A DNA stretch of 64,000 nucleotides, taken from positions 1 through 64,000 of the forward strand of contig JAGXFV010000009.1 of the NCBI GenBank assembly GCA_024637095.1, read 5' to 3'. This DNA comes from Actinomycetes bacterium (GTDB lineage: Bacteria > Actinomycetota > Thermoleophilia > RBG-16-64-13). The notes below the pieces were generated by a model. It was given only the letters and a program-made list of their open reading frames with translations, was not told where the DNA came from and made no database searches. Positions 3,277-27,035 of this stretch are shown here, in pieces (within the stretch, counting starts at the first letter, position 1; each line of letters starts with the position of its first letter). A program made the translations under genes and the position numbers.

Positions 3277-3292
3277 CGAGGAGGCCAGGCCC

Positions 3293-6624: not shown

Positions 6625-6626
6625 GC

Positions 6627-8039: not shown

Positions 8040-8041
8040 TC

Positions 8042-9022
8042 ATCAGCGCGAAGACCGTCGTCATCGGCTCACGCAAGAGCACGCTGGCCCTGACCCAGTC
8101 CCGCTTGGTTCGCCAGATGTTGTTGGATCTGAACCCAAGCCTGGACGTCCGAATCGAGAAGATCGTCACTTCCGGCGACCGCATCCTGGATTCCCCGCTG
8201 TCTCAGATCGGGGATCGGGGGCTCTTCGTCAAGGAGATCGAGGAGGCTCTGTTGGGGGGCGATATCGATCTCGCGGTGCACAGCGCCAAAGACGTCCCCA
8301 CAGCGCTGCCGGAGGGTCTGGGGCTTTTGGCCTTTCCTCCCAGGGAGGATCCGGCCGACGTCTTCGTCGGGGGGCTCAGCTCGGTGGATGAACTCGGACC
8401 CGGCAGGGTGATCGGCACTAGCAGTCTCCGTCGGCGCTCCCAGCTTCTGGCGAACTATCCGGAACTGGAAGTGGTCGACATCCGGGGCAACGTCGAGACG
8501 CGGATCCGCAAGATCGAAGAGGAGAGGTTGGACGGCACCATCCTCGCCAAGGCCGGCCTCGAAAGGCTGGGGCGGCTGGAAGAAGCGGCCTTCGAGTTCC
8601 CGCTCGAGGTGATGGTGAGCGCCGTTGGGCAGGGATCGTTGGCGCTTGAAGGCCGAATCGGCGACGAGAAGCTCGCCCCCTACATCGAGCGGCTGGACCA
8701 CGGGGCCACGCGCCAGGCGGTGCTCGCCGAACGTGCGCTGATGCGGACCCTCGAGGGGGGTTGCCAGGTGCCCATAGGCGCACGCGGCGTTGTGCAGAAT
8801 GGTGAGCTCCTTCTGGTTGCCTACGTGGGCAGCCTCGACGGGGAACGCCACCTGCGCCGGGAGGCGCGCGGTCCGGCCGAGCGACCCGAGGAACTGGGGA
8901 CGCGAATGGCGCAGGAGTTGCTCGAGGCGGGCGCCGACGTCATTCTGGAGGAGATCCGCACCACCTGTGCCGCCCCTAACAGCCCGGACGCCTGTGAACC
9001 TCCGCCCCCGGCGGCGGGGTAG
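8042..9022 (+). CDS. hemC: Hydroxymethylbilane synthase (porphobilinogen deaminase)
   Basis: Joins four porphobilinogens into hydroxymethylbilane. Seen motifs: TVVIGSRKSTLALTQSR at the N-terminus, DLAVHSAKDVPTALP, GTSSLRRRSQLL, VVDIRGNVETRIRK and the dipyrromethane-cofactor Cys in RTLEGGCQVPIGA. The start is unusual. The first NTG suitable for initiation, TTG 8105, would delete the first strand and substrate-binding residues, and the frame upstream to the stop at 7979-7981 has no ATG, GTG, TTG or CTG before the motif. ATC at 8042 lies 6 bases after GAGGAG (8030-8035) and is the best candidate start. The last 20 residues are Pro-rich and probably not conserved. Confidence 0.94.
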   Translation: MSAKTVVIGSRKSTLALTQSRLVRQMLLDLNPSLDVRIEKIVTSGDRILDSPLSQIGDRGLFVKEIEEALLGGDIDLAVHSAKDVPTALPEGLGLLAFPPREDPADVFVGGLSSVDELGPGRVIGTSSLRRRSQLLANYPELEVVDIRGNVETRIRKIEEERLDGTILAKAGLERLGRLEEAAFEFPLEVMVSAVGQGSLALEGRIGDEKLAPYIERLDHGATRQAVLAERALMRTLEGGCQVPIGARGVVQNGELLLVAYVGSLDGERHLRREARGPAERPEELGTRMAQELLEAGADVILEEIRTTCAAPNSPDACEPPPPAAG

Positions 9023-10582
9023 TTGTCTGTGGACGGAACTCCTCGTAGCAACGCTGCTGCCTGGCGCGAGCCACGCGTATTCTTGGTGGGCGCCGGTCCA
9101 GGCGACCCGGGTCTGATCACGATACGCGGTCTGCGGTTGCTCGAGCGGGCCGAAGTGGTTCTCTACGATCGTCTGGTGGACCCGGTACTGCTGGACGCAG
9201 CCCCTTCCAGCGCAGAGTTGATCTATGTGGGCAAGCGCACGGCCGCCCACACCGTGCCGCAGGACGACATCAACCGCCTGCTGCTCGAGCACGGCCGCCG
9301 GGGAAGGCGGGTGGTGCGGCTCAAAGGGGGCGACCCCTTTATCTTCGGCCGTGGCGGAGAGGAAGCGATGACTCTGCACGAGGCCGGCATACCCTTCGAA
9401 GTGGTGCCGGGCATCTCCGCGGGCTACTCAGTTCCGGCCTACGCGGGCATCCCCGTGACCTATCGCGGCCTGACTTCCCACGTCACCTTCGTTACCGGCC
9501 ACGAGGACCCCACCAAGGACAGCGCGGCCCTCGATTGGGACAAGTTGGCTTCCGGTGTCGGCACCCTGGTCATCTTCATGGGAGTGAAGAACCTGCCGCA
9601 GGTCGTGCAGAAGCTCAAGGAGCGGGGTCGGCCGGGAGACACTCCCGTCGCCCTGATCCAGCAGGGCACCCTGCCCGGTCAGCGCACGGTGGTCGGTTGC
9701 CTGGACGACATCGTCGACAAGGTGAGGGAATCGGGGCTGCGCCCGCCCGCCATCACCGTCATTGGCGACGTCGTGAGCCTGCGGGAGCAACTTTCCTGGG
9801 TCGAGCAGCGCCCGCTCTTTGGCCGCCGCGTGGTGGTCACCCGGGCTCGAGCGCAGGCGCTAGGCCAGATCGACCGCCTCCGAGACCTGGGGGCGGAGGT
9901 GATCGCCTTTCCTACCATCCGCATCGAACCGGTGGAGCGCTCCCGCGAGATCAGCGCCATGCTGGAAGGCCTCAGTCGCTACCAGTACGTGATCTTCACC
10001 AGCGCGAACGCCGTCGCTTGTTTCTTCGAGAGAATAGGCGAGGCCGGCCTGGACGTTCGCCGACTGCACCAAGCAACGGTGGTGGCCGTCGGTCCCAAGA
10101 CCGCAGCCGCCTGTCGCGCCGGAGGACTGCAGCCGGACCTTATCCCTGAGGACTTCGTCGGAGAGGGCATTCTCGAGATGCTGGGGGACAGTGAGGTAAA
10201 GGGCGCCCGGGTGCTCATCCCGCGGGCCCGGAAAGCCCGTGACCTCCTCCCCCGGGCTCTGAGCGCCGCCGGGGCGGTGGTCGAAGTGGTTCCGCTCTAC
10301 GACACCCTGCCCACGGAGCCTGAGGAAAGGGCGGTCCGGCGGGTGCTCGAGGCGGACTACGTCACCTTCACCTCGAGTTCCACGGTCAAGAACTTCGCGG
10401 ATCTGTTCCGTGCGCAGGGGCTCGAGGAACGGTTGGGCGAGATCAGGGCCGCCTCCATCGGGCCAATGACGTCTGAGACGGTGCGCAAAGAGGGTCTGCA
10501 ACTGATTGTCGAGGCCCGGGAGTATACCGTCGAGGGGCTGGTGCAGGCTCTGGCGGCAATGGGCGGCGACTCGCCCAGATAA
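9023..10582 (+). CDS. cobA-hemD: Uroporphyrinogen-III C-methyltransferase / uroporphyrinogen-III synthase fusion
   Basis: Residues 15-265 form the SAM methyltransferase: VGAGPGDPGLITIRG, VVLYDRLVDP, RLKGGDPFIFGRGGEE and VVPGISAGYSVPAYAGIPVTYRG are all classic SUMT motifs. Residues 268-510 are the weakly conserved HemD domain (RRVVVTRARAQA at its start, YVTFTSSSTVKNF near its end). The fusion cyclises hydroxymethylbilane and methylates the product to precorrin-2, channelling flux to sirohaem or cobamide. This fusion is common in Gram-positive anaerobes. Start is TTG 9023 or GTG 9029, directly after hemC. Confidence 0.95.
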   Translation: MSVDGTPRSNAAAWREPRVFLVGAGPGDPGLITIRGLRLLERAEVVLYDRLVDPVLLDAAPSSAELIYVGKRTAAHTVPQDDINRLLLEHGRRGRRVVRLKGGDPFIFGRGGEEAMTLHEAGIPFEVVPGISAGYSVPAYAGIPVTYRGLTSHVTFVTGHEDPTKDSAALDWDKLASGVGTLVIFMGVKNLPQVVQKLKERGRPGDTPVALIQQGTLPGQRTVVGCLDDIVDKVRESGLRPPAITVIGDVVSLREQLSWVEQRPLFGRRVVVTRARAQALGQIDRLRDLGAEVIAFPTIRIEPVERSREISAMLEGLSRYQYVIFTSANAVACFFERIGEAGLDVRRLHQATVVAVGPKTAAACRAGGLQPDLIPEDFVGEGILEMLGDSEVKGARVLIPRARKARDLLPRALSAAGAVVEVVPLYDTLPTEPEERAVRRVLEADYVTFTSSSTVKNFADLFRAQGLEERLGEIRAASIGPMTSETVRKEGLQLIVEAREYTVEGLVQALAAMGGDSPR

Positions 10583-10633
10583 TCCCGCTCGAAGTCCGGT
10601 GGAAGGCGCGACCGAGAGCCCGGCCGGAGTCGT

Positions 10634-10642
10634 TGCTATACT
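10634..10642 (+). promoter_or_regulatory. Extended -10 promoter upstream of hemB
   Basis: TGCTATACT (TGN plus TATACT at 10637-10642) sits in the 129-base spacer between cobA-hemD and hemB, with the hemB ATG 70 bases downstream. No convincing -35 is visible. It would allow hemB-ahbD to be transcribed apart from the upstream genes. Confidence 0.55.
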
Positions 10643-10711
10643 CTCTCGGTTGCGCCCAAGAGCGCTCCAATAGACCCGGTTTGTCCCTAGTTCCGGAGGT
10701 GCCCGCAGCAT

Positions 10712-11698
10712 ATGTACTTTCCCCAGTACCGGTCGCGCCGCATGCGGCAGAGTGAGACCCTCCGCGGGCTGGTCCGCGAAAACCGCCTGCATCCCGGCAG
10801 CTTCGTTTACCCCATGTTCGTCATCCACGGCGAGGATGTCCGCAATCCGGTGGCTTCCATGCCCGGCGTGTTCCAGTTCTCGATCAACCACCTGGTGGAT
10901 GAAGCGCGAGAGGTGGCGGAACTGGGCGTCAAGAGCGTAATCCTCTTTGGAATCCCGGAGCAGAAGGACGAGGCTGCCTCCGGCGCCTACGACCCCGAAG
11001 GCGTAGTGCAGATGGCGACGCGGGCCCTCAAGCAGGAGGTGCCCGAGCTGACCGTGATGGCCGACGTCTGCCTTTGCGAATATATGAGCCACGGGCACTG
11101 CGGCGTGGTGCAGGAAGACCGGGTGCTCAACGATGTCTCGCTGGAACTTCTCGCGAACGCGGCCGTCAGTCTCGCCCACGCCGGGATCGACGTGGTCGCG
11201 CCCTCCGACATGATGGACGGCCGGGTGGGCGCCATCCGCTCGGCGCTCGACCAGGAAGGGCACACCGAGCTGCCGATCATGTCCTATAGCACCAAATACG
11301 CTTCGGCTTTCTACGGCCCATTTAGGGACGCTGCCGAATCGCCCCCGGCTTTCGGCGACCGCCGCTCCTATCAGATGGACCCGGCCAACTCGGACGAGGG
11401 AGTGCGGGAAGCCCTGATAGACATCGAGGAGGGGGCTGACGTCGTCATGGTCAAGCCTGCTCTGCCCTACCTGGACCTGATCTATCGATTGAAGACGGAA
11501 ACCCGCTACCCCGTCGCCGCTTACAATGTCAGCGGCGAGTACGCCATGGTCAAAGCGGCCGCCGAGAAGGGCTGGATCGACGAGAAGGCCGTGGTGCTCG
11601 AGACGCTGCTTGGGATCAAGCGCGCGGGGGCGGACATCATCATCACGTATCACGCCAAGGACGCGGCCCGCTGGTTGGCCGAGGAGAGCAGTGCCTGA
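10712..11698 (+). CDS. hemB: Porphobilinogen synthase (5-aminolaevulinate dehydratase)
   Basis: Condenses two 5-aminolaevulinates to porphobilinogen. The Zn-site motif DVCLCEYMSHGHCGVV carries the three Cys of the Zn-dependent class. The two active-site lysines are in STKYASAFYGPFRDA and MVKPALPYLD. Length of 328 residues is typical. ATG 10712 follows CCGGAGGTGCC at good spacing. Its last base is shared with the ahbD ATG (TGATG), so these two are coupled. Confidence 0.97.
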   Translation: MYFPQYRSRRMRQSETLRGLVRENRLHPGSFVYPMFVIHGEDVRNPVASMPGVFQFSINHLVDEAREVAELGVKSVILFGIPEQKDEAASGAYDPEGVVQMATRALKQEVPELTVMADVCLCEYMSHGHCGVVQEDRVLNDVSLELLANAAVSLAHAGIDVVAPSDMMDGRVGAIRSALDQEGHTELPIMSYSTKYASAFYGPFRDAAESPPAFGDRRSYQMDPANSDEGVREALIDIEEGADVVMVKPALPYLDLIYRLKTETRYPVAAYNVSGEYAMVKAAAEKGWIDEKAVVLETLLGIKRAGADIIITYHAKDAARWLAEESSA

Positions 11699-12849
11699 TG
11701 GAAGTAAGGGAGAAAACGCAGGAGCAGACCGAGGAGATCCAGTATCTGCCCAAGCTGATCGCTTGGGAGGTCACCCGCTCGTGCAACCTGTCCTGCAGGC
11801 ATTGCCGGGCTTCGGCAGAGAAGGGTCCCTACCCCGGCGAGCTGACCACCTCCCAGGGCAAGGCTTTGGTGGACGATATCGCCGCCTTCGCCAATCCGGT
11901 GCTCATCATGACCGGTGGCGATCCGCTGATGCGCGAGGACATCTGGGAACTGGCCGAGTACGCTATTCATCAGGCCGGCCTGCGCGTGGTGATGTCTCCG
12001 AACGGCACGTTGGTGACGCCGGAAGCCGCGCGCAAAATGAAGGAGGTGGGAATCCCCCGGATCTCTATCTCGATTGACTTCCCCACCGCCGAGATGCACG
12101 ATGAGTTCCGCGGCGTTACCGGCGCGTTCGAAGGCGCGGTACGTGGAGTTAAGACCGCTCTCGAGGCCGGCGTCCAGGTGCAGATCAACTCCACCATCAC
12201 CAAGCTGAACGTGGACTTCCTGGACGATCTGCTCAACCTCTCCAAGGAACTTGGGGCTGTAGCCTTTCATCCCTTCCTGCTGGTTCCCACCGGTCGCGGC
12301 AAACAGCTGGGACCGGAAGAGCTTCCCCCGGAGGACTACGAGCGCACGCTCAACTGGGTGTACGAGCGGCAGAAGACCTCGGACATCTTTTTCAAGCCCA
12401 CCGACGCCCCGCACTATCACCGCATCATGCGCCAGCGGGCCAAAGAGGACGGCACCGATCTGTCCGAACTCAAGATGCATCCTCATTCACACGCCATGAT
12501 GGCCGGCGGGGTGGGCAAGTCCCGCGGACACGGCGATATGGATTCTCACTCCAAAGGCTGTCTCGCCGGGACCGGCTTTTGCTTCATCAGCCACACCGGC
12601 AAGGTGCAGCCCTGCGGCTACTTCGACGTGGCGGCAGGCGACGTCAAACAGCAGCCATTCAGCGAGATCTGGCGCACATCCGAACTCTTCCGCGATCTGC
12701 GGGACGTATCCAAGCTCAAGGGCAAGTGCGGCATCTGTGAGTACCGCCGGGTTTGCGGGGGCTGCCGGGCGCGGGCCTACGAGGTAACCGGGGACTACCT
12801 GGCCGAGGAGCCCTACTGCGTGTATGAGCCGGTTCGCCAGGGTTGCTGA
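11698..12849 (+). CDS. ahbD: AhbD-type radical SAM haem b synthase
   Basis: Radical SAM/SPASM protein of 383 residues. The N-terminal cluster is AWEVTRSCNLSCRHCRASAE, with the HCRASA form that marks the AhbD branch, then MTGGDPLMREDIW. A C-terminal SPASM-like region has eight further Cys, including CGICEYRRVCGGCRARA. AhbD decarboxylates Fe-coproporphyrin III to haem b, the last step of the sirohaem-dependent pathway of archaea and sulfate reducers. The alternative NirJ/AhbC assignment is less likely from the motif. AhbA, AhbB and AhbC are not in the window, nor are HemE or HemN. It is coupled to hemB. Confidence 0.88.
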   Translation: MEVREKTQEQTEEIQYLPKLIAWEVTRSCNLSCRHCRASAEKGPYPGELTTSQGKALVDDIAAFANPVLIMTGGDPLMREDIWELAEYAIHQAGLRVVMSPNGTLVTPEAARKMKEVGIPRISISIDFPTAEMHDEFRGVTGAFEGAVRGVKTALEAGVQVQINSTITKLNVDFLDDLLNLSKELGAVAFHPFLLVPTGRGKQLGPEELPPEDYERTLNWVYERQKTSDIFFKPTDAPHYHRIMRQRAKEDGTDLSELKMHPHSHAMMAGGVGKSRGHGDMDSHSKGCLAGTGFCFISHTGKVQPCGYFDVAAGDVKQQPFSEIWRTSELFRDLRDVSKLKGKCGICEYRRVCGGCRARAYEVTGDYLAEEPYCVYEPVRQGC

Positions 12850-16709: not shown

Positions 16710-17504
16710 TTGTTGTCTGACGGTGGGAGGAACCCGTTCCGTTTTCGCATCTATGATGCGGGTGGGCGGGCCGTTCGGATACGTCTACGCTACTTGATCC
16801 TCGTGGGGTTTGGCCTGGCGGCGGTTGCCGTGGCCTTCCTTTTCGTGCCTTTTTACGTGACCAGCACTCCTCAGTTCTGTTCGAATTGCCACATCATGGA
16901 CCCCTTCATCGCCTCTTGGGAGCAGTCCACCCACTCCAAGTTCGGATGCGCGGAATGCCATGTGCGCCCAGGAATCCTGAACCACGTGGTGAACCAGGCA
17001 CGGGTGACGCAAAACATCTACGCCAACCTGGTTGGCGGCGCGGAGATGCCTGCGACGATTGCTTCTGCCAGCAACGAGAACTGCCTGCAGGCGGGTTGTC
17101 ACAGCCTGAACCGGACCGCCTCCACGTCCGGGGATCTGCTCATACCGCACTACGATCACGTCACCCTGCGCGGCCTGGAGTGTAAGCACTGCCACTTCAA
17201 CGTGGTCCATACTCGGGATGGCGGAACCCCGGTGCCGCCGATGGGGGTCTGCGCCATGTGCCACGACGGAACGCAGGCCCCGAACGAGTGCGAGACCTGC
17301 CATCAGCAACCCCCGGCCGCGGAAGACGCGCACCCAGCCCTCGCCCTGGAGCAGCACGCAGAGTTCGCGCGAGGACGCGAGCAGGAGTGCTTCGACTGCC
17401 ACCACGCCGACCAGTCCTTCTGCTCGCAATCCGGATGCCACGCGGAGGGCGAGTTCCAATCTCTGACTGGGCGCGAGAGAATTGAAGAGAGGTTTAACGA
17501 GTAA
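16710..17504 (+). CDS. NapC/NirT-family octahaem cytochrome c
   Basis: A cytoplasmic N-terminus and one membrane helix (YLILVGFGLAAVAVAFLFV) lead to a NapC-like region (TSTPQFCSNCHIMDPF...WEQSTHSKFGCAECH). Haem sites: six CXXCH plus two CX4CH (CLQAGCH, CSQSGCH), eight in all. NapC proteins oxidise menaquinol and pass electrons to outer cytochromes. The C-terminal half repeats Cys pairs without a catalytic CXXCK, so it is a carrier, not a nitrite reductase. TTG 16710 or 16713 follows AAGGAG. It shares the N-terminal RIYD-x2-GR pattern and overall plan with the next gene, with which it overlaps by one base, so the two look like an old duplication. Confidence 0.88.
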   Translation: MLSDGGRNPFRFRIYDAGGRAVRIRLRYLILVGFGLAAVAVAFLFVPFYVTSTPQFCSNCHIMDPFIASWEQSTHSKFGCAECHVRPGILNHVVNQARVTQNIYANLVGGAEMPATIASASNENCLQAGCHSLNRTASTSGDLLIPHYDHVTLRGLECKHCHFNVVHTRDGGTPVPPMGVCAMCHDGTQAPNECETCHQQPPAAEDAHPALALEQHAEFARGREQECFDCHHADQSFCSQSGCHAEGEFQSLTGRERIEERFNE

Positions 17505-18490
17505 TGCGCTGGCCGGGTTTTCTCCGAATCTATGATGAGAGCGGGCGACCTGTTCGGCTGCGGGTGCCTTACCTGATCTTGATCGCGGCCGCCATCGTGT
17601 TTATCCTGATCGCCGCCGTCTACCTGCCGGTGGCGATGACCTCCACTCCCAGCTTCTGCGGGAACTGCCACCTGATGCAGGAGCCGGTGGAACTGTGGGA
17701 AAACTCGACTCATGCCAACGTCAACTGCATTCAGTGCCACATCGATCCCGGTTTCATCAATACGCTCGAACATAAGCTGATGTCCTACAAGGAGATCTAC
17801 GGGCAGTTCCTCGGCGACGGAGAAATGCCCGACGAGATCCACCTGCCCTCCAACGCGGCCTGCCTTCAGTGCCACTCCCTCGACCGGAACGTCTCGCCCG
17901 GCGGGGACATCAAGATTCCGCACCGCGAGCACGTGGAGATGCGCAATCTGCTCTGCGCCGACTGTCACTTCAACGTCGTCCACACCCGCCGGGCCATCTC
18001 GGGCGGCAATCCGCCCATGGACGTTTGCTACATGTGCCACGACGGTGAACAGGCGCCCAACGAGTGCGAGACTTGCCACACCACCCCGCGGGAGGCTTTT
18101 GTCGAACAGGGCCATCCGGAGGATGCCTTGGAAAACCACGGCGCCCTTGCCCGGGAGCGCGTCGAGGACTGCTATCGGTGCCACTCTCAGGAGTCCGGGT
18201 TCTGCGAGGATTGTCACAGCCAGCCGCCGGCCACGCATGCCCGCGACGACTGGCGTTACACCCACAGCGTCGAGGTCAATCGGGACGGGCGCAGCTCCTG
18301 CCAGGGTTGTCACGAAGAAGAGTTCTGCGAGAAATGCCACAGCGTCCAGCACCCGCCCAACTGGGTGAACCAGCACGGAGACTTCGCGCAGGGCGGCGGT
18401 GAAGCGTGTCTCGTCTGCCATGCACCGGGATTCTGCAACGACTGCCACGACACCGAGGGAGTCGACACGAGAATAGGCCAGGCTCAGTAG
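17504..18490 (+). CDS. NapC/NirT-family dodecahaem cytochrome c
   Basis: Paralogue of the preceding gene with an N-terminal LRIYDESGRPVRLR segment, one membrane helix (YLILIAAAIVFILIAAVYL) and a NapC-type haem region (TSTPSFCGNCHLM, VNCIQCHIDPGF). Twelve CXXCH motifs are present in 328 residues. After the NapC part come paired haem motifs (CQGCHEEEFCEKCH, CLVCHAPGFCNDCH) with PPNW-x3-HG between them, the same di-haem repeat used by the surface cytochromes downstream. It may therefore form the bridge from menaquinol to those proteins. A TAATG overlap couples it to the previous gene. Confidence 0.88.
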   Translation: MRWPGFLRIYDESGRPVRLRVPYLILIAAAIVFILIAAVYLPVAMTSTPSFCGNCHLMQEPVELWENSTHANVNCIQCHIDPGFINTLEHKLMSYKEIYGQFLGDGEMPDEIHLPSNAACLQCHSLDRNVSPGGDIKIPHREHVEMRNLLCADCHFNVVHTRRAISGGNPPMDVCYMCHDGEQAPNECETCHTTPREAFVEQGHPEDALENHGALARERVEDCYRCHSQESGFCEDCHSQPPATHARDDWRYTHSVEVNRDGRSSCQGCHEEEFCEKCHSVQHPPNWVNQHGDFAQGGGEACLVCHAPGFCNDCHDTEGVDTRIGQAQ

Positions 18491-18504: not shown

Positions 18505-19452
18505 ATGAAGGAGGAGACTTTGAAGACGGTGGCTGGGGCTGCCGGGGGGTTCGCGAAAGAATTCACGTGTCTTCGCCGGGGGGCGGGGTTCGGGATTCTC
18601 GCATTTATCCTGCTCGTTCTCCTCACTGGGGAGGTCGCCTGGGCGCAGGAGAGTGCGCAGTCGGCCGAGGGCGACAACGGCTGTTTGGTGTGCCATGGGC
18701 AGGAGTACTTGGGATCCGTCGAGGTGGACGGAGCGGCGCAGGATCTCTTCGTCGGTCCAGAGGCCTACGAGGAATCGGCGCACGGACTGCTGCCGTGCGC
18801 GTCGTGCCATATCGGATTCACCCACGATAACCCGCATCAGATGGTGACGAACGCGGAGTTCTTCGCCGAAACGGCGCGCGAGGCGTGCCGCAATTGCCAT
18901 GCCGATCAGTTTGAGATGTATCAGCAGAGCTATCACGGCGAGTTGAGCCGGGGAGGCGTCGCCGGGGGGGTCCTGGCCCCCGGCTGCACCGACTGCCACG
19001 GCATGCATCAGGTGCAGCGCGTCGATACGCTGGAATACCGTCAAGACATTCAGCAAATCTGCGGGCAGTGCCATGGCGGGCGCACGGACACCTTCCTCGA
19101 CACCTATCACGGCAAGGCCATTACCCTTGGGCGAGAGGCTTCGGCCACCTGCGTGGATTGTCACGGTTCGCACTTCATCCTGCCAACCACCAACCCGATG
19201 TCCACGCTTTCGGAGGCCAATCACCTAGATACCTGCCAGACCTGCCATCCCGATGCCGATGAGGGCTTCACTTCCTTCTTGGTGCATATTCAGCCCACCT
19301 CCACCGATGCTCCTTTGATCGTCTTCGCGGTGGCGATCTTCTACATCTCGATGATCGTTGTGGTCTTTGCCTTCGGGGGGATCCACACGCTTCTGTACAT
19401 CTACCGGGGGCTCAAGAACGGTCTCTACTTCGGTAAAGGAGGTCACCACTGA
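18505..19452 (+). CDS. Membrane-anchored heptahaem cytochrome c, first c/b module
   Basis: The protein (about 315 residues) has an N-terminal export signal (FGILAFILLVLLTGEVAWA), seven CXXCH motifs, several spaced as CTDCHGMH and CVDCHGSH in the style of c7/tetrahaem quinone-linked cytochromes, and a C-terminal membrane helix (LIVFAVAIFYISMIVVVFA). ATG 18505 is listed; TTG 18520 has the better Shine-Dalgarno sequence (AAGGAGGAG, 18508-18516). It overlaps the cytochrome b gene that follows by one base, so the two are probably subunits of one quinol-oxidising complex, comparable in parts to the fused b/c protein CbcL of Geobacter. Confidence 0.87.
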   Translation: MKEETLKTVAGAAGGFAKEFTCLRRGAGFGILAFILLVLLTGEVAWAQESAQSAEGDNGCLVCHGQEYLGSVEVDGAAQDLFVGPEAYEESAHGLLPCASCHIGFTHDNPHQMVTNAEFFAETAREACRNCHADQFEMYQQSYHGELSRGGVAGGVLAPGCTDCHGMHQVQRVDTLEYRQDIQQICGQCHGGRTDTFLDTYHGKAITLGREASATCVDCHGSHFILPTTNPMSTLSEANHLDTCQTCHPDADEGFTSFLVHIQPTSTDAPLIVFAVAIFYISMIVVVFAFGGIHTLLYIYRGLKNGLYFGKGGHH

Positions 19453-20303
19453 TGGCGGCCGGCACCGACGCGCTCGAAGGGGTGCGCCTCGTCTACAGAA
19501 GATTCAGCGCCTTCCACAGGTTCAACCACTACCTGGTGATGATCAGCTTCTTCGGTCTGGTCCTCACCGGGATTCCGCTCAAGTTCAAGGACAGCCTCTG
19601 GGCCGAGTTTTTCATGGGCCTTATCGGCGGTGTTGAAGGGGCGGGATTCATCCACCGCGTGATGGCTGTGTTCAATTTCACGTATTTCTTCTTGGAAATG
19701 GGCTATATGTCCTGGTACGTGGCCGCCCGCAAGGGCCCCATTTTTGGTCCTGACTCCATAGTCCCGAGCAAGAAGGACTGGCAGGACATCAAAGGCATGT
19801 TTCGTTGGTTCCTAGGCAGGGGCCCCAAGCCGCGGTTCAACCGCTTCACCTACTGGGAGAAGTTCGACTTCTGGGCCCTCCTGGCGGGAACCTTTCTCAT
19901 CGGTGGAACCGGCCTCATGATGTGGTTCCCGGAGTTCACCACTTCGTTCCTACCCGGGGTTTCACTCAACGTGGCGCTGGTGCTCCATTCCAACGAGGCC
20001 TTCCTGGCCACCGGGGTGATCTTCATCTTCGTGCACTTCTTCTCGGCGCACGGACGCCCCGAGTCCTTCCCCGCCGATGAGGTGATCTTTAGCGGCAGCC
20101 TGCCTCTCGATCACTACATCGCGGACCGGCCCGCCGAATACGAGAACCGTCTGCGGGCGGGGACTCTCGATCAGGTGGTGCGTCCCGCGCCGACGGGCCC
20201 CATGACTCGCGTGAACTCGTGGCTCATGGTCGTATTCAGCGCGGTTGCGCTGTTTGCCGCCACGTACACCATGTTGCTGGTGGTGTGGCCGCTTCTGTTC
20301 TAG
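19452..20303 (+). CDS. Di-haem cytochrome b membrane subunit (FdnI/HydC-like), first module
   Basis: A 283-residue protein with about five membrane segments. Conserved His residues stand in membrane helices (SAFHRFNHYLVMI, FIHRVMAVFNF, VLHSNEAFLATGVIFIFVHFF), as in the b-type quinone-reactive subunits of formate dehydrogenases and hydrogenases. No iron-sulfur or catalytic subunit lies beside it; its partner is the heptahaem cytochrome upstream. Likely direction is menaquinol to haem b to haem c. It is about 40% like the second module's b subunit by eye, with shared KKD-W and GP-PRFxRFT-W-KFD-WA motifs. Confidence 0.85.
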   Translation: MAAGTDALEGVRLVYRRFSAFHRFNHYLVMISFFGLVLTGIPLKFKDSLWAEFFMGLIGGVEGAGFIHRVMAVFNFTYFFLEMGYMSWYVAARKGPIFGPDSIVPSKKDWQDIKGMFRWFLGRGPKPRFNRFTYWEKFDFWALLAGTFLIGGTGLMMWFPEFTTSFLPGVSLNVALVLHSNEAFLATGVIFIFVHFFSAHGRPESFPADEVIFSGSLPLDHYIADRPAEYENRLRAGTLDQVVRPAPTGPMTRVNSWLMVVFSAVALFAATYTMLLVVWPLLF

Positions 20304-20364
20304 CTTTGCAATCCGCCTTTAGAAGGATGTGAGTAGGATCTTGCAGTCGAATACGGGGGAGAAG

Positions 20365-21387
20365 ATGAATATGACTGGGGTGGGCCTACCGCGGCCCCGG
20401 CGCCACGTTGGGAGGGCCGCGGCCTCGGCCACGCTCCTGGCCGCCTTGATGCTTGGGCTTTTTGTCGGCGTGGCCTCGGCCCAAGATGTCGAGGGCTGCC
20501 TGATCTGCCACGGTGATCCGAATTTCACCGATCCCACGCCGGCCGAGAATCAGGAGGGCGACGACCTCTCTCTCTATGTCGACTCGGAAGTCTTCTTGAG
20601 TTCCGTGCACAAAGAACTGAAGTGCTCCGATTGTCACGAGGGCTTCCTCCTGACCATCCCCAACCATCAATTGGATATGGACAAGGATTTCCGGCAGGTG
20701 GCAATCGAAGCCTGCGAGGGCTGCCATCAGGAAGCCTTCCAGGAGTACCAGACCTCGGATCACGCCCAGCGCTTCTACGAGGACCAGGCGGGGCCGATCT
20801 GCATCAGTTGCCACGGCTCGCACGCCATTCGCCGGGTGAACCTGGGCGAGGAGTCGGCCGACTTCAAGATGAGCATGGCCCGTGACTCCTGCGGCCAATG
20901 CCACGCGGACAAGTTCGAGCAGGCGAGCCACGAGTTCCACTTCAAAGCACTCTCGCTCGGGTACGAGCGGGCGGCGACCTGTTTCGACTGCCACGGCTTT
21001 CACGACAACCTGGCTCTGACCTCCGGCGAACCGGAGACGGTCGAGGCCTGCCGTCAGTGTCACCCCGGCGCGAACGAGGGCTTCACCTACTTCCAGATGC
21101 ACCTGGAGGAGGGCTTCCAGAACGCCTGGTGGGGTGTGCGCGTCGTCTACTACTTCTTCAGTACCTTGCTGGTGGTGGTGCTCGTAACCGGCATCGCCTA
21201 CACCACGGTCCATTTCCAGAAGGAAACCCGGACCATCCTCGGCGTATTCGGTCGAGGCACGGGACGCCTCTTCGGCTTCATCCGTCAGCTCGAGGAAGAG
21301 TCCATGAGAGAGCGCGAGGGCCGGCCGAACGGCCCCGAGGACCAATCCAAAGATGAACCTGAGAACGACGACAGGGGGATGCTGTAA
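20365..21387 (+). CDS. Membrane-anchored heptahaem cytochrome c, second c/b module
   Basis: Paralogue of the first heptahaem protein: signal peptide ending near ASAQDVEG, seven CXXCH motifs in matching order (CLICHG, CSDCH, CEGCH, CISCHGSH, CGQCH, CFDCHGFH, CRQCHPGANEGF), then a C-terminal membrane helix (VVYYFFSTLLVVVLVTGIAY). It differs in having a charged cytoplasmic tail of about 55 residues rich in Glu, Arg and Asp. ATG 20365 follows GGGGGAGAAG. It shares one base with the next gene (TAATG), again a b-type subunit. Confidence 0.87.
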   Translation: MNMTGVGLPRPRRHVGRAAASATLLAALMLGLFVGVASAQDVEGCLICHGDPNFTDPTPAENQEGDDLSLYVDSEVFLSSVHKELKCSDCHEGFLLTIPNHQLDMDKDFRQVAIEACEGCHQEAFQEYQTSDHAQRFYEDQAGPICISCHGSHAIRRVNLGEESADFKMSMARDSCGQCHADKFEQASHEFHFKALSLGYERAATCFDCHGFHDNLALTSGEPETVEACRQCHPGANEGFTYFQMHLEEGFQNAWWGVRVVYYFFSTLLVVVLVTGIAYTTVHFQKETRTILGVFGRGTGRLFGFIRQLEEESMREREGRPNGPEDQSKDEPENDDRGML

Positions 21388-22157
21388 TGGCCGAGGCGAC
21401 CTACCCGGCCACGGGTGAGGAACGGCTGGAGGGAGCGGCGGTTGCCGAGACGAATGTCGAGGGACGTGACTACTATGTCCGCTTCTCGCCCTACCACCGG
21501 TTGAGCCACTTCGTCATGATGACCACCTTCATCGGCTGCGCCCTCACCGGCCCGCCCCTGAAGTACAGCTATGACTTCTGGGCTCAGGCGATGATGGGCT
21601 TCTGGGGCGGGGTGGAGAACGCCGGCCTGATCCATCGCGTAATGGCCGGTTTCATGGTCGCCGACTTCGTCATCCACGTGCTCTACCTTGGCTACCACAT
21701 CGGGCTCAAGAAGGCCAAGATCTTTGGGCCCGACTCGATCTTCTTCTGGAAGAAGGATCTGACCGACGCCCTGGGCATGGTCAAGTGGTTCTTCGACCGC
21801 GGCCCGCGACCGAGGTTCGAGCGCTTCACCTTTTGGGAGAAGTTCGATTACTGGGCGGTCTTCTGGGGGATCGCGATGATCGGCACTTCGGGCTTCGCGC
21901 TCTGGTTTCCCACGGTGACCAGCACGCTCGTGTCTGGTATCTTCCTCAACGTTGCGCGAATCATCCACGGCGACGAGGCCATCTTGGCCATTGGCTGGAT
22001 CCTCTTCGTCCACCTTTACAACTCACACCTACGCATGAACGTCTTTCCGATGGACCCGGTCATCTTCACCGGGCGTATGCCCGTCGAGCACGTGAAGCAC
22101 GACAAGGCGGCCTGGTACGACCGCCTGGTCCGGGAAGGAAAGATCAAGCCGGAATGA
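21387..22157 (+). CDS. Di-haem cytochrome b membrane subunit (FdnI/HydC-like), second module
   Basis: A 256-residue integral membrane protein, paralogous to the b subunit of the first module: PYHRLSHFVMMTTFIGCALTG, LIHRVMAGFMVADFVIHVLY, and IIHGDEAILAIGWILFVHLYNSH carry the candidate haem b His ligands. It lacks the last membrane helix of its paralogue. The tandem duplication of the c/b pair suggests two quinol dehydrogenases tuned to different potentials or acceptors. The end overlaps the following lipoprotein gene by four bases (ATGA). Confidence 0.85.
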   Translation: MAEATYPATGEERLEGAAVAETNVEGRDYYVRFSPYHRLSHFVMMTTFIGCALTGPPLKYSYDFWAQAMMGFWGGVENAGLIHRVMAGFMVADFVIHVLYLGYHIGLKKAKIFGPDSIFFWKKDLTDALGMVKWFFDRGPRPRFERFTFWEKFDYWAVFWGIAMIGTSGFALWFPTVTSTLVSGIFLNVARIIHGDEAILAIGWILFVHLYNSHLRMNVFPMDPVIFTGRMPVEHVKHDKAAWYDRLVREGKIKPE

Positions 22158-23056
22158 TGGGGAGCATGCCGCAAAAAAATGGCCTCGCGCCCTCGGATGG
22201 GCGTGCGCAGACGGAGCGGTGGCGGGCTTTGCTTATGCTGGTGATCCTGGCGCTCGCGGTCGTCCTGCTGGCGGGCTGTGGGGAGGATGAACCCTCGAGC
22301 GCCGAGAGCTTTGGCGAGCGCCTGCTCGAAGCAGAGCAGGAGCCGGGGGTGGCGGCCGAGCCGGCCAGCTTCATCAGCCTCTGCGCTAACTGCCATGACC
22401 GGCTTGACCGGGAACTCGACTGGCGGCGGGAGCGCAAGTTGGTGTTCAGCCATCCCGCCCACTTCGCCCAGGGCATACGCTGCCAGGCGTGTCACGAAGA
22501 GTTCCCGCACAAGCCCGGGCTAACGCTGCACGTGGAAGTCGAAACCTGCTTCGTGTGTCACGGGACACTTCACGGGCAGGGAGGAGAGTTGGCTTCGACT
22601 GACTGCGATACCTGCCACACTCCCGACATCGCCCCGGTCACCGACGACCACAGCCTGTCCAACTGGCGTCTGGCGGAAGGGCCGGAACGAGCCCTCCATG
22701 CGGAGAAGGCTACTCAGCAGCGCCTGTACTGCAAGATGTGTCACCAGGAAACATACTGCCAGGACTGCCATCAGGTGGAGATGCCGCATCCCGAGGACTG
22801 GCAGGCCGCGCACATGCCGGCTGCCCAGGAAAACGGGAGGGCTTGTGACCAGTGCCATACGCCGGAGTACTGCAACGCTTGCCACCACGCTGCTTTCGAG
22901 CAGCCGCCGGACTGGCGCCGGCAGCATCGTACGGTGGTGGGTGATGTGGGAATCGATGCCTGTTTTGAATGTCATGACCCCACTTTCTGCTCGAACTGCC
23001 ACGTTCGCGTCGGTCAGGACAGGGGTGTTCTAGGGGGGCCGGGAAACGGGGGCTAA
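22154..23056 (+). CDS. Decahaem c-type lipoprotein with di-haem repeats
   Basis: A lipobox (LALAVVLLAGC, Cys near residue 38) indicates lipid anchoring outside the membrane. Ten CXXCH motifs follow. The N-terminal part has the FSHPAHF...CQACH arrangement shared with the next three cytochromes. The C-terminal part is made of the di-haem repeat C-x2-CH-x4-5-C-x2-CH, with MPHPEDW-x3-H after the first pair. 300 residues, no enzymatic motif. Likely an extracellular electron conduit that takes electrons from the NapC or c/b modules. Confidence 0.88.
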   Translation: MMGSMPQKNGLAPSDGRAQTERWRALLMLVILALAVVLLAGCGEDEPSSAESFGERLLEAEQEPGVAAEPASFISLCANCHDRLDRELDWRRERKLVFSHPAHFAQGIRCQACHEEFPHKPGLTLHVEVETCFVCHGTLHGQGGELASTDCDTCHTPDIAPVTDDHSLSNWRLAEGPERALHAEKATQQRLYCKMCHQETYCQDCHQVEMPHPEDWQAAHMPAAQENGRACDQCHTPEYCNACHHAAFEQPPDWRRQHRTVVGDVGIDACFECHDPTFCSNCHVRVGQDRGVLGGPGNGG

Positions 23057-23074
23057 GTGAAAGAGGAGGACCCC

Positions 23075-23917
23075 ATGAAGACCCCTTGGCGTGGCCGCGG
23101 GGCAGAGCTCGTGCCGGGAGTCTTTCTCCTGGCGGCGTTGCTGGCCCTTGCCCTCTTCTCGCTCGGCTGCGGGGAAGATGTTGAGGCTCCGAGCAGCGCC
23201 ACCGAGCAGGCGGAAACGGCCCTGGCGGTGCCGGTCCGGAGCGAGCAATGCCTGTCCTGCCACACCGATTTTGCCGAGCGGATCTCAAACGAGAACCAGC
23301 GGGTCTTCTCTCACGAACTCCATCTGGAGCAGGAGATCGACTGCAGCGCCTGTCATTCGGACGTGGGGCACGACGGTGCCCCGATTCACCATCCGAGCTC
23401 CTGCCAGGATTGCCACGGAATCACCATGCCGCACCCCGGCGGTTACATAAATGAGCACGGCGAGCAGGTGCTAGACGAGGGTACCGACGTCTGCACTCGT
23501 TGCCACAATGTCCATCTGCACTGTCAGGCATGCCACGGCATCGAGATGCCGCATCCTGCCGAATGGGAGCAGAAGCACGGTGAGTTGGCGGTGCCGGAGC
23601 TGGAATCCTGCCGGCAGTGCCACCAGTCGGACTACTGCCTGCAGTGCCATCCGGTGGAGATGCCGCACCCCGGGGATTGGATCAAGACCCATGGCCTGCC
23701 CGTGGTGGACCAGGGATCCGCGACCTGCACTAGATGCCACGAGACCAATCTTTGCGTCAGCTGTCACGGTATGCCCATGCCGCACCCGGAAGATTGGGGT
23801 ACCGGTCACCCTGCCGTGGCGGCTGAGAAGCGGGCCGAATGCCTGCTTTGCCACACCGAGCAGGACTGCGCTGATTGTCACGATATCCATCAGACCCACG
23901 GGAAGGATGGTGTGTGA
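23075..23917 (+). CDS. Undecahaem c-type lipoprotein with MPHP di-haem repeats
   Basis: Lipoprotein signal (ALFSLGC) and eleven CXXCH motifs in 280 residues, about one haem per 25 residues. Four MPHP segments, each followed by W or Y and a His some residues on (MPHPAEWEQKH, MPHPGDWIKTH and similar), alternate with paired haem motifs, making this the most regular of the set. The extra His residues are about equal in number to the haems of the repeats and could be the distal ligands. ATG 23075 follows GAGGAGG; GTG 23057 is less likely. Ends in a TGATG overlap with the next gene. Confidence 0.88.
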   Translation: MKTPWRGRGAELVPGVFLLAALLALALFSLGCGEDVEAPSSATEQAETALAVPVRSEQCLSCHTDFAERISNENQRVFSHELHLEQEIDCSACHSDVGHDGAPIHHPSSCQDCHGITMPHPGGYINEHGEQVLDEGTDVCTRCHNVHLHCQACHGIEMPHPAEWEQKHGELAVPELESCRQCHQSDYCLQCHPVEMPHPGDWIKTHGLPVVDQGSATCTRCHETNLCVSCHGMPMPHPEDWGTGHPAVAAEKRAECLLCHTEQDCADCHDIHQTHGKDGV

Positions 23918-24867
23918 TGCGCTCATCAATCAGTTCCCGCAAGATTCGCTTCGGGCTATTGCTGGTTGTTGGATTGCTCCTGGTCTTGGGGGGTGCCGTG
24001 CTTAGGGACTCTCCGGATACCATGGCGCAGGAGGAATCGGAACCCGAGCGCACCCGCACGGACCTTCGTGGACTCCCGGCGACCGGTGAGCCAACCGGCG
24101 CGAGCGGTGCGCCGCGAGAATCCGGGGGCGAGCCTTTCCGCACCTGCGAGGCGTGTCACCCCGACTTCCTGCAGATGCCCCCCCAATCAGCGGATCTGAT
24201 CTTCTCCCACCAGACACATCTGGACGAAGACGTGGAATGCGCCACCTGCCACAACCCTCCTCTGGGTCACTTCGGCAAGCCGGCCGCCTTGATGAGCACC
24301 TGCCTCTCCTGCCACGAGGGGCAGACCGCCCCCAACGAGTGTGAGAACTGCCATCGCAAGTTGGACGAGATCGCGCCTGACCTGGACGAACCCATCGTGC
24401 ACCTCGACCCAGACGCTTCCAAGCGGCAGAGCTGCGACAAATGCCACGACGTCGAAGTCTGGTGCGAGCGCTGTCACGGCGTGGACATGCCCCACCCCGA
24501 CACCTGGACGGGCGCCCACGGAGAGGTCGCCTTGGCCGAGGCGCAGGTATGCGAGAAGTGCCACCAATCCAGGGACCCCGCGTACTGTGTGGAGTGTCAT
24601 GGGGTGGCCATGCCTCATCCGGCTTACTGGTATTCGGGCCATGGGGACATCGCCTCGGACAACCGGGATTCCTGTGGTCAGTGCCATCTGGAGGCGCCCC
24701 AGTACTGCAACGAGTGTCACCACGCGGGCTTCTCGCCTACCGAAGATTGGCTGCCAGAACAGCACGGTCAGGTCGTTGAGGATCGTGGGGAGGCCACCTG
24801 CCTTGTTTGCCATGAGGAGGAGTTCTGCGCGCAGTGCCACACTGCGGGACGGTTTGTTAAGGGATGA
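23917..24867 (+). CDS. Dodecahaem cytochrome c with MPHP di-haem repeats
   Basis: An N-terminal membrane segment (FGLLLVVGLLLVLGGAVL) without a lipobox may be a signal anchor. After a Gly/Pro-rich stretch come twelve CXXCH motifs in 316 residues. The first four (FRTCEACH, VECATCH, CLSCH, CENCH) match the N-terminal region of the sister proteins, including FSHQTHL. The rest form di-haem repeats with MPHPDTW-x3-HG and MPHPAYW-x3-HG. Coupled to the upstream gene and followed by a hairpin. Confidence 0.87.
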   Translation: MRSSISSRKIRFGLLLVVGLLLVLGGAVLRDSPDTMAQEESEPERTRTDLRGLPATGEPTGASGAPRESGGEPFRTCEACHPDFLQMPPQSADLIFSHQTHLDEDVECATCHNPPLGHFGKPAALMSTCLSCHEGQTAPNECENCHRKLDEIAPDLDEPIVHLDPDASKRQSCDKCHDVEVWCERCHGVDMPHPDTWTGAHGEVALAEAQVCEKCHQSRDPAYCVECHGVAMPHPAYWYSGHGDIASDNRDSCGQCHLEAPQYCNECHHAGFSPTEDWLPEQHGQVVEDRGEATCLVCHEEEFCAQCHTAGRFVKG

Positions 24868-24869
24868 TC

Positions 24870-24900
24870 CTGGAGAGGCCGGCTTCGCCAGCCTCTCCAG
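24870..24900 (+). other. Intercistronic hairpin in the cytochrome operon
   Basis: CTGGAGAGGC (24870-24879) and GCCTCTCCAG (24891-24900) form a perfect 10-bp stem, with GGC/GCC pairs inside and a TTC loop. It directly follows a stop codon and lacks a U-tract. It may be an mRNA stability or partial termination element that sets the last cytochrome's expression apart from the rest. Confidence 0.6.
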
Positions 24901-24950
24901 AACCAATATGCCATTCAAGTTTCGCGGGACAGAATAAAGGAGGTGAATGC

Positions 24951-25892
24951 ATGATTAAACTGCGAAATCAGAGCCTGCTGCTCGCATCCGCTCTGGTCCT
25001 TCTGCTGGCCGCACTGGTGTTCGTCGCCGGGTGCCAGGAAGCCGACGATGAACCGGAAGCCACGGACACCGAGGCGACGGAGGCAACCGACACCGAGGCG
25101 ACGGAAGGGACAGAGGACACAGAGGGTGAGGTAACCGACACCACCACGGCCGTTGCCGATTCGACGGAGACAACCGAGGCCGGTGAGTCTCTGGCCCCCG
25201 TCTCCGAATCGTTTCAGACCTGCGCCGACTGCCACTCGGACTTCAACCAGTTCCTGGCCGACAGTACTGTGCTCACCCCGAACTTCAGCCACGCTTTGCA
25301 CCTGAATCAGGGGTTTGAGTGCGAGACCTGCCACGTCGTGCCGACGCACGAGCCGGATATGATCAACCAACCGCCGATGCTCAAGTGCTTCTCCTGCCAC
25401 GGTCAGGAGGCGGACGCCAGTGCGCCAGGCGAGTGTAGCGTCTGCCATCCGGCGGACTTCCCACTGGTTCCGGCCAATCACACCGAACCCAACTGGTTGC
25501 CACCGGCAACTCCGGCCGAACTGATCGCGACGGTTGACTCACAGCACTCCGGCGTAGCCACACAGGACCGGGCTTACTGCGAGATGTGCCACGCTCAGCA
25601 GTTCTGCCAGGATTGCCATAACACCGAGATGCCACATGCGAGTGACTGGACACAGGTCCACTCCACGACGGTGCGCGACGCGGGCGATCCTCAGCAGTGT
25701 TTGCGCTGTCATCCGCAGGAGTTGCTATGCAACACCTGCCACCACCCCGGCTTCGAAGCGGGGGGCGGTGCGTGGACGCAACAACACCCGCCGATAGTGC
25801 GCAATGCCGGGGCGGAGGCCTGCTTCCAGTGCCACAATCCTTTGACTTGCGCGCGCTGCCACGTGACCGGCGAATATCAGTCCTTCGACTGA
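24951..25892 (+). CDS. Decahaem c-type lipoprotein with acidic Thr-rich linker
   Basis: The lipobox is FVAGC (Cys near residue 29), followed by about 50 residues of Glu/Thr/Asp repeats (TDTEATEATDTEATEG), a flexible stalk that would hold the haem part away from the membrane. Ten CXXCH motifs follow with the shared N-terminal FSHALHL unit and C-terminal di-haem repeats (CEMCHAQQFCQDCH, MPHASDW-x3-H). ATG 24951 has a near-perfect ribosome-binding site, AAGGAGGTGA, the strongest in the operon, suggesting high expression. It ends the operon before a clear terminator. Confidence 0.88.
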   Translation: MIKLRNQSLLLASALVLLLAALVFVAGCQEADDEPEATDTEATEATDTEATEGTEDTEGEVTDTTTAVADSTETTEAGESLAPVSESFQTCADCHSDFNQFLADSTVLTPNFSHALHLNQGFECETCHVVPTHEPDMINQPPMLKCFSCHGQEADASAPGECSVCHPADFPLVPANHTEPNWLPPATPAELIATVDSQHSGVATQDRAYCEMCHAQQFCQDCHNTEMPHASDWTQVHSTTVRDAGDPQQCLRCHPQELLCNTCHHPGFEAGGGAWTQQHPPIVRNAGAEACFQCHNPLTCARCHVTGEYQSFD

Positions 25893-25958: not shown

Positions 25959-27035
25959 TTAGCCCTGGCGCGCCTTCTGCTGCTTCATCTCATACAGGCT
26001 GGAATCAGCCTGCTGCAATAGTTCTTCCGTCTCCAGACCGTCCGAGGGGCATGACGCGGAGCCCTGGCTCACCTGGAGCGATATCAAGGTATGGTCGGTC
26101 TTCAACTTGGTCTTGCTCAGAGAGTCCGAAATGCGGTCGCTCACCAAGCGGACCACGTCCACCTCTGTTTCGGGCATCAGGATCATGAACTCGTCGCCCC
26201 CAAAGCGGAACGAGAGATCGACGTCGCGCACGTTGGAACGGATGACTGCGGCCACATTCGAGAGGGCGGCGTCACCGACGGCATGCCCGTAGGTGTCGTT
26301 GATCCACTTGAGGTTGTCTGCATCGAGCATCAGCAGCGAGAAGGGGTGGCGGTAGCGCTTATACATCTCAACCTGTAGCTCCAACTGCTGTACCAGGTAT
26401 CTGCGATTGAAGAGCCCGGTCAGGGGATCCGTGTGCGCCAGCCGATTGAGTTCGGTGATAGAGAGGTCGTGGTAGCTCTCGGTGGCCGAGGCGGCAATGC
26501 CCTGCAAACAGGTCCGGAGTCTCAGCACCAGGGAGAGCAGTTCGTGATCTTCCCGTCGGAGGGCCTGGGCCAGGAGCGACCAGATAGACTCCTCGAGCGC
26601 GAGGGTGTGGCGGACCAGCGCCTGCATCCCCTCCTTGCCCGAAGAGACCGACGCCCCCAGAATCGCGGCGCGCTCGTAGTAGCGGCCCCCCGGGGAGAAC
26701 TCCTGCATTGCCTCCTCGTCCTCGAGGGCTCGAGCCATACCTTCCACGAGTTCTACCGAGGCACTGATGCTTTCCTGCGTTGGGAAGTTCTCCAGGGTGG
26801 AAAGGTCGTCGACATCGCTGATGATCCGGCCAAGCCAACTCTTGGTCAGCTGGAGCTTGTTCTGATCGAGGAGCCGGCGGGTCTTGTCGAAGAGCGGGCG
26901 CGAGGGAGACTGATCGCTCTCCCTCAGCAACTCGTCCATTTTCCCGAAATCTTCTACCAAGACGAAACTCTTTTCTTCCAGGAGTACGATTAGGACTACT
27001 ATAATCCAACCGGTCGCCAGAGTAAACTTCAGCAC
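25959..27035 (-). CDS. GGDEF-domain diguanylate cyclase
   Basis: The C-terminal 165 residues are a GGDEF domain making cyclic di-GMP from two GTP: LTGLFNRRYL, LDADNLKWINDTYGHAVGD and the intact active site RFGGDEFMILM. No RxxD inhibitory site is evident at the usual place just upstream. The N-terminal 190 residues are helical with no recognised sensor domain. Start is uncertain: the longest reading (GTG 27035) would add a membrane helix, but a -10 on this strand (26998-27003) lies inside it, and TTG 26960 preceded by GGAAGAAAAGAG is a good alternative giving a soluble protein. It may control attachment or surface features near metal or other solid acceptors. Confidence 0.88.
   Translation of the reverse strand: MLKFTLATGWIIVVLIVLLEEKSFVLVEDFGKMDELLRESDQSPSRPLFDKTRRLLDQNKLQLTKSWLGRIISDVDDLSTLENFPTQESISASVELVEGMARALEDEEAMQEFSPGGRYYERAAILGASVSSGKEGMQALVRHTLALEESIWSLLAQALRREDHELLSLVLRLRTCLQGIAASATESYHDLSITELNRLAHTDPLTGLFNRRYLVQQLELQVEMYKRYRHPFSLLMLDADNLKWINDTYGHAVGDAALSNVAAVIRSNVRDVDLSFRFGGDEFMILMPETEVDVVRLVSDRISDSLSKTKLKTDHTLISLQVSQGSASCPSDGLETEELLQQADSSLYEMKQQKARQG
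26998..27005. promoter_or_regulatory. Overlapping divergent -10 elements
   Basis: The forward strand carries TATAAT at 27000-27005, pointing to the DUF4388-like gene, and the reverse strand carries TATAGT at 27003-26998, pointing to the GGDEF gene. Sharing one A/T core, the two could be fired as a bidirectional promoter. If used, the reverse one rules out the GTG 27035 start for the GGDEF gene. Confidence 0.4.

Follow-up and report, generated by a model that had tools for sequence, protein, structure and literature searches.

We analysed a 64,000-nucleotide stretch (hereafter the window; contig JAGXFV010000009.1, positions 1 to 64,000) from an Actinomycetes bacterium of the phylum Actinomycetota, whose draft genome comprises 2.47 Mb in 49 contigs and is 96.6% complete. 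The window carries a cluster of ten genes, all on the + strand, between positions 16710 and 25892. Because neighbouring genes of the cluster overlap or are separated by gaps of no more than about 85 bases, they likely form one operon. The last four genes encode separate multihaem proteins of 280-316 residues each, termed here P1 to P4, with 10, 11, 12 and 10 CxxCH haem-binding sites, respectively (43 haems in total). In all four, further haem sites that look c7-like lie ahead of a repeat in which pairs of haem sites alternate with pairs of histidines (His). This repeat is a real, conserved and portable di-haem module of about 40 residues, composed of [M/x]PH-P-x2-W-x3-H, some ten residues of spacer and CxxCH-x4-CxxCH, and the original prediction, made from the same DNA, was partly wrong about its register, length and distribution. 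With a probability of roughly 0.6, we read the module as a wire element, His pair first, in a menaquinol-fed extracellular relay that would run via P1-P4.

The repeat had been described as a unit of about 45 residues, C-x2-CH-x(4-7)-C-x2-CH-x3-MPHP-x2-W-x3-HG, occurring in all four proteins. In a six-frame scan of the window, this strict form matched four times, at 23492 and 23609 (P2) and at 24433 and 24550 (P3), and had no match in P1 or P4; only a relaxed form (...MPH...W...H) reached all four, with seven matches (P1 one, P2 three, P3 two, P4 one) and none in the window outside these genes. Successive units start 38-42 residues apart, as judged from motif positions, so that the proposed length was too great. 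A variant of the unit also occurs in P1, P3 and P4: MPH is missing there, and in its stead the second CxxCH is immediately followed by a His (CHH), with a His-His spacing of 13-14; in cytochrome c3, a His directly following the proximal His ligates another haem. Recent duplication of units was considered and is not supported, as identity between units of the same protein did not exceed 62% in 87 proteins. In the one orthologous locus compared (L054), each unit of the window was closest to the unit at the same position.

Table 1. Genes and repeat modules of the multihaem cytochrome cluster (positions in the window)
Feature	Position	Strand	Remarks
8-haem membrane-anchored NapC/NrfH-like cytochrome, putative quinol dehydrogenase	16710..17504	+	PF03264 49.2 bits, above cut-off; haem sites counted with the pattern C.{2,4}CH
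12-haem NapC/NrfH-like cytochrome	17504..18490	+	PF03264 63.5 bits, above Pfam cut-off
7-haem cytochrome, hydrophobic stretch near C-terminus	18505..19452	+	start codon hand-picked
Cytochrome b561-type membrane protein (Ni_hydr_CYTB)	19452..20303	+	PF01292 32.4 bits, cut-off 30.1
Second 7-haem cytochrome, hydrophobic stretch near C-terminus	20329..21387	+	
Second cytochrome b561-type membrane protein	21387..22157	+	PF01292 32.6 bits, cut-off 30.1
P1: 10-haem putative lipoprotein, c7-like head and three haem pairs	22157..23056	+	alternative ATG at 22154
P2: 11-haem possible lipoprotein, c7-like head and four modules	23075..23917	+	
P2 module 1 (MPHP...H, then haem pair)	23417..23536	+	hand-set boundaries
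P2 module 2	23537..23650	+	hand-set boundaries
P2 module 3	23651..23767	+	hand-set boundaries
P2 module 4	23768..23881	+	hand-set boundaries
P3: 12-haem protein, N-terminal hydrophobic segment, four tight haem pairs and a looser fifth	23917..24867	+	
P3 modules 2 and 3, each headed by an MPHP stretch	24478..24720	+	hand-set boundaries
P4: 10-haem putative lipoprotein, three tight haem pairs and a looser fourth	24951..25892	+	

When each of P1-P4 was aligned with six relatives, both additional His of the regular units were invariant in all seven sequences, the window included, as had been predicted. The companion claim, that the His are of the right number for bis-His ligation of every haem, holds by count for the regular units and for P1 and P2 (10 conserved non-proximal His for 10 haems and 14 for 11, respectively) and fails in P3 (10 for 12) and P4 (9 for 10). 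Two of the conserved His of P2 form an HxxH stretch after its last haem, and in P3 and P4 a conserved methionine (Met) lies ahead of the third haem (M126 and M143, 7/7 sequences).

The His columns were also kept across a 93-row alignment of four-module array fragments with a mean identity of 28% (termed A3; 126 fragments, minus-strand frames excluded, were reduced by similarity to 92 and the query was added). Rows of A3 needed at least two His per inner gap, and the invariance of the inner His is therefore partly built in by construction; H14, which lies in a gap not filtered for His, was kept in 88/93 rows. Among 630 gaps between haem pairs at loci L049-L147 (of which L130 duplicates the window's own P1-P3), [WFY]xxxH was present in 484 (shuffles: mean 64, maximum 89) and a His spacing of 8 occurred in 344/504 gaps with two His (500 shuffles: mean 27.9, maximum 42), counts that are not fully unbiased because L049-L128 were retrieved with patterns holding one MP or MPH stretch.

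The original prediction took the unit to be self-contained, with its two His behind the haem pair. A repeated unit with two conserved extra His is indeed present, and its frame is probably shifted by half: since P1, P3 and P4 carry no His past their last haem pair, the unit probably consists of a His pair and then a haem pair. The same lack of trailing His was found in the protein encoded at 17504 and in 17/17 array proteins listed for L131-L147 (a set that duplicates, at least in part, proteins of earlier loci). L137 and L140 each encode a ten-haem pure array of five His-pair/haem-pair modules that ends three residues past the last CxxCH; these proteins are lipoprotein-like, their haem part consists of the five modules only, and they offer a small, clean test case for ligand register and haem packing. 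At least one His lay ahead of the first pair in 152/159 runs, and 76/139 C-terminal runs had no His past the last pair. Counted with the His first, P1 closes at exactly one His per haem (10 for 10), and P2 does likewise with three to spare. We therefore consider this register the better reading for the pure arrays and for P1, with mixed ligation as a further possibility, and the two His of a module most likely serve as distal ligands to the haem pair behind them.

Several counts weigh against this register. Across 989 interior haem clusters, taken from 159 proteins (a set without repeats, in which every protein has an MPH-like stretch, at least three pairs and no haem cluster larger than two), the size of a cluster fitted the number of His in the following gap (67% exact, r = 0.43) better than that in the preceding gap (54% exact, r = 0.29). 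Two His trail the final pair in 51/138 cases, and P2 and many 12-haem relatives have two His behind their terminal haem pair. Exactly two His lie past the last haem in 52/201 proteins, 31 of which have no His before the first haem. These observations favour ligation as in the original prediction, by His after the pair, or a mixed arrangement with one ligand on each side. Such an arrangement is at odds with the missing trailing His in P1, P3, P4, the 17504 protein and the arrays of L131-L147, L137 and L140 among them, as well as with the exact balance in P1, and we hold it to be doubtful, although it keeps appreciable weight.

An AlphaFold2 model of the four-module array, built from the A3 alignment and computed without haem, reached a mean predicted local distance difference test score (pLDDT) of 86.0 and a predicted template modelling score (pTM) of 0.56, and four of its helices start at residues 10, 50, 88 and 127, in step with the repeat period. 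A model of the whole of P2, built from 9 sequences, was poor (pLDDT 48.6, pTM 0.24) and was set aside. The best sequence matches to A3 in the PDB were MtrC-like and nine-haem cytochromes, with irregular overlap of the CxxCH sites.

Matches to P2 were found in 8/18 family genomes searched, the closest being 88% identical and stemming from a genome of the same genus (G001). The haem order 10-11-12-10 was found in 7/7 complete loci of the family; an eighth genome (G005) has the whole of P1 and a P2 apparently truncated by a contig end. The order of the haem genes in the cluster is common to six relatives. Start codons in these relatives were assigned by a script rule, which shortened the 12-haem NrfH-like protein of L032 to 10 haems. 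In four of the loci (L031, L033, L034 and L035), P4 is followed by a protein with 15 haems and a hydrophobic segment at its N-terminus; for L029, L032 and the window, no such 15-haem protein is among those listed downstream of P4.

The prediction of a variable length thus does not apply to P1-P4, which are fixed in 7/7 loci, and is borne out elsewhere. Run counts across phyla revealed arrays of up to 14 haem pairs. Counting only runs of at least three pairs with at least two His in every gap, we found 162 non-redundant proteins, of which 47 have three pairs, 102 have four and 13 have 5-14; adding later loci raised the total to 173. The longest, L074, comes from a metagenome-assembled genome labelled Armatimonadetes and has 32 haems, with 14 consecutive pairs. 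At an expectation value (E) of 1e-25, A3 matched at least 27/81 genomes from the phylum of L074 and at least 25/198 from that of the window, the tallies being lower bounds because a cap applied to the candidates scored in each genome. A second array-like match lies elsewhere in the window's own genome (G000:C16:6092-6496). At the contig start of L084, an end-truncated frame of 1537 residues holds 52 haem sites (C.{2,4}CH) and one MPH-like stretch.

Two proteins with PF03264 and two with PF01292, all above cut-off, are encoded in the same cluster as the multihaem cytochromes. The 17504 protein joins the two features: its C-terminal part is itself a His-pair/haem-pair array with four haem pairs (A3 profile match at 17999-18454). 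The 16710 protein scored 60.4 bits with the NrfH model TIGR03153, below the cut-off of 134.2. In the six relatives, PF01292 was matched at E 0.001 in 10/12 frames following 7-haem genes, four of them above cut-off; one frame each in L031 and L032 gave no match at this level.

Fusions of arrays to quinol-related domains recur outside the family. A NapC/NirT domain above cut-off is fused to the arrays of L058, L065:8482, L066, L069, L074 and the 16-haem L059, and falls just below cut-off in L067 (22 vs 24.1). A Pfam scan at E 0.001 detected no such domain in L055, L056 or L096, and of two L064 proteins scanned for it, one had an internal match only and the other none. Cytochrome b/b6 domains above cut-off occur on the arrays of L075, L077, L065:11001, L141 and L145 (the last equals L077 in length and scores and is possibly the same protein). 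In most fusions of the bc/b6 kind, a mono-haem cytochrome c domain lies between cytochrome b and array. A Rieske gene lies just upstream of the L065:11001 fusion, which suggests a bc complex with a wire placed after cytochrome c. The gene order of L067 (9-haem, 11-haem, a cytochrome b561-type protein with 57 bits for PF01292, 28-haem array, 10-haem) resembles that of the window. Common to these cases is the pairing of a quinol-oxidising membrane protein with an array that would serve as its exit.

The cluster is probably wiring that moves respiratory electrons out of the cell. In the order and direction of flow that we infer, the NapC/NrfH-like proteins and the modules of 7-haem cytochrome plus cytochrome b would oxidise menaquinol, electrons would enter the array of the 12-haem NrfH-like protein and would then cross the 43 haems of P1-P4, held outside the membrane, to an end acceptor that would be extracellular, for example Fe(III). 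Consecutive modules would form a regular repeat and thereby a continuous haem chain. P1 and P4 of the window have lipobox-like N-termini, P2 has a near match (its orthologue satisfies the loose lipobox rule of our script in 5/6 relatives) and P3 has a hydrophobic segment without a lipobox; these features would place the four proteins at the cell surface, as originally predicted. For scale, OmcZ rises by 58 Å per eight-haem subunit (PMC9473688), and a thickness of 20-80 nm is quoted for the peptidoglycan of Gram-positive bacteria (PMC7911101). At the OmcZ rise, a serial chain of all 43 haems would be about 31 nm long, inside this range, although their end-to-end order is speculation.

Further points weigh against the relay. 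The conserved His are too few for all haems, P3 being short by two and P4 by one. With Foldseek, the array model retrieved no PDB chain at E <=10, a result that is uninformative on the fold. The Anaerosomatales, another actinobacterial lineage, include two isolates that carry 17-18 multihaem cytochromes (PMC9686372). The first, an obligate Fe(III) reducer, speaks for the relay; the second has a comparable set of cytochromes and does not reduce Fe(III), which speaks against it. Because only one of these isolates reduces Fe(III), cytochrome content alone is no proof of function.

That P1, P2, P3 and P4 are each a separate protein of 280-316 residues would also suit an electron buffer, in which they would store electrons and exchange them as shuttles, whether soluble or anchored, instead of forming a fixed wire; the decahaem PdcA of Thermincola has been proposed as a soluble carrier of this kind (PMC7911101). 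The fixed 10-11-12-10 order in 7/7 loci and the lipobox-like N-termini speak for a defined, anchored assembly, neither being decisive, and we regard buffering as a possible, rather unlikely alternative. The shortage of His in P3 and P4, together with the conserved Met that precedes their third haem, raises the prospect that one of them is a terminal reductase whose haems without a conserved His bind substrate. Ligation by Met or by a partner protein would explain the shortage without catalysis, and PdcA itself is described as having nine bis-His haems and one with a possible Met (PMC7911101); a reductase seems improbable. The original prediction also raised extracellular filaments. Polymerisation of P1-P4 in the manner of OmcS, OmcE and OmcZ, which are bis-His haem chains, would fit the regular modular arrays, and cytochrome filaments arose more than once from unrelated sequences (PMC9473688). 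No chain of these three proteins was among the PDB sequence matches of P2 (at E <=1, 8k9e and 6lod only) or of A3 (at E <=0.01, 17 sequences, with no filament cytochrome among their names). Moreover, P1-P4 are four different co-conserved paralogues rather than one monomer, and P1 and P4 look lipid-anchored, so that filaments are very unlikely.

A related arrangement, which we consider quite unlikely, would make P1-P4 a single fixed complex of different subunits in which a protein supplies His ligands to haems of the one next to it, as a His of the adjacent subunit ligates a haem in OmcS and OmcE (PMC9473688). Summed over P1-P4, 43 conserved non-proximal His stand against 43 haems, a balance that may be a coincidence, and the conserved HxxH past the last haem of P2 is followed in the next gene by P3, which lacks two His. 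A second clade (L057 and L068) has a P2-like protein, in which 11 haems face 13 conserved His, and downstream of it a P3-like protein that has 8 or 9 non-proximal His for its 10 haem sites, one of which is CX4CH; the extra H149 of P2 is missing there, and a 16-haem gene replaces the P4-like gene. In both P3-like proteins (L057:867 and L068:9796), the CX4CH site is the last haem site. More generally, for arrays that carry at least two His past the last haem, a multihaem gene comes next in 50/53 cases, and this gene has fewer His than haems in 32/50 (41/50 when CX3-4CH sites are counted); tail-less arrays have a multihaem neighbour in 38/76 cases, which is His-short in 5/38 (6/38 with CX3-4CH). 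Against inter-subunit ligation stands the surplus of His in 12/50 followers (5/50 with CX3-4CH), including P3 of L052 on the strict count, and the gene pairs represent few independent clades. A widespread two-gene unit (L064, L080, L090 and others) couples a 12-haem protein that has two extra His at its end to a downstream protein of 11-13 haems, often poor in His.

Among known families, Cytochrome_C7 (PF14522) matched P1, P2, P3 and P4 with 44.2, 34.4, 45.7 and 43.9 bits, respectively, above its cut-off of 24.8. Its best stretch lies ahead of the repeat in P1, P2 and P4 and inside the array in P3; in all four proteins HxxH precedes the second haem, which we take to be the c7-like motif. This 67-residue model leaves out the His-pair/haem-pair repeat and the runs of up to 14 pairs. 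The decahaem MtrA/DmsE proteins are multihaem electron carriers fed by the quinone pool; their model (TIGR03508) gave P2 only 18.7 bits, against a cut-off of 192.2, and did not match P1, P3 or P4 at E 0.001. The 16710 and 17504 proteins exceed the cut-off of NapC/NrfH (PF03264), and the long arrays of relatives are fused to the same domain; we know of no described NapC/NrfH member with such an array.

By description, the cluster can be likened to the ImdcA-PdcA-CwcA-OcwA chain of Thermincola, a relay proposed to lead from the quinone pool through thick peptidoglycan (PMC7911101): both would be quinone-fed and have decahaem parts. The chain differs in that its authors took OmcS as the template for a model of CwcA (PMC7911101). 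The literature searched, mostly without subscription journals, contained no title naming the module, by which novelty is not proven, and the available part of PMC8042283 holds nothing on the cytochromes of this lineage. As a multihaem electron-transfer cluster the locus is ordinary; it is unusual in the regularity of the module, its range of lengths and its fusions.

Several neighbouring genes complete the picture of the locus. Upstream of the cluster, 4896-12849 holds one gene for a cytochrome c assembly protein along with a series of tetrapyrrole genes (siroheme-type, glutamyl-tRNA reductase, porphobilinogen deaminase, a methylase-HemD fusion, ALAD and a radical SAM/SPASM protein), preceded at 7-4806 by molybdenum cofactor genes and a transport ATPase, as judged by eye. 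On the opposite (-) strand, a GGDEF diguanylate cyclase gene (25959-27035) adjoins P4.

As to how thick-walled bacteria export electrons, a di-haem module that can be counted, and that occurs on different quinol-oxidising proteins, would allow the length of the putative wire to be compared with the architecture of the cell envelope, and with runs of up to 14 pairs it may also serve as a building block for designed protein wires.

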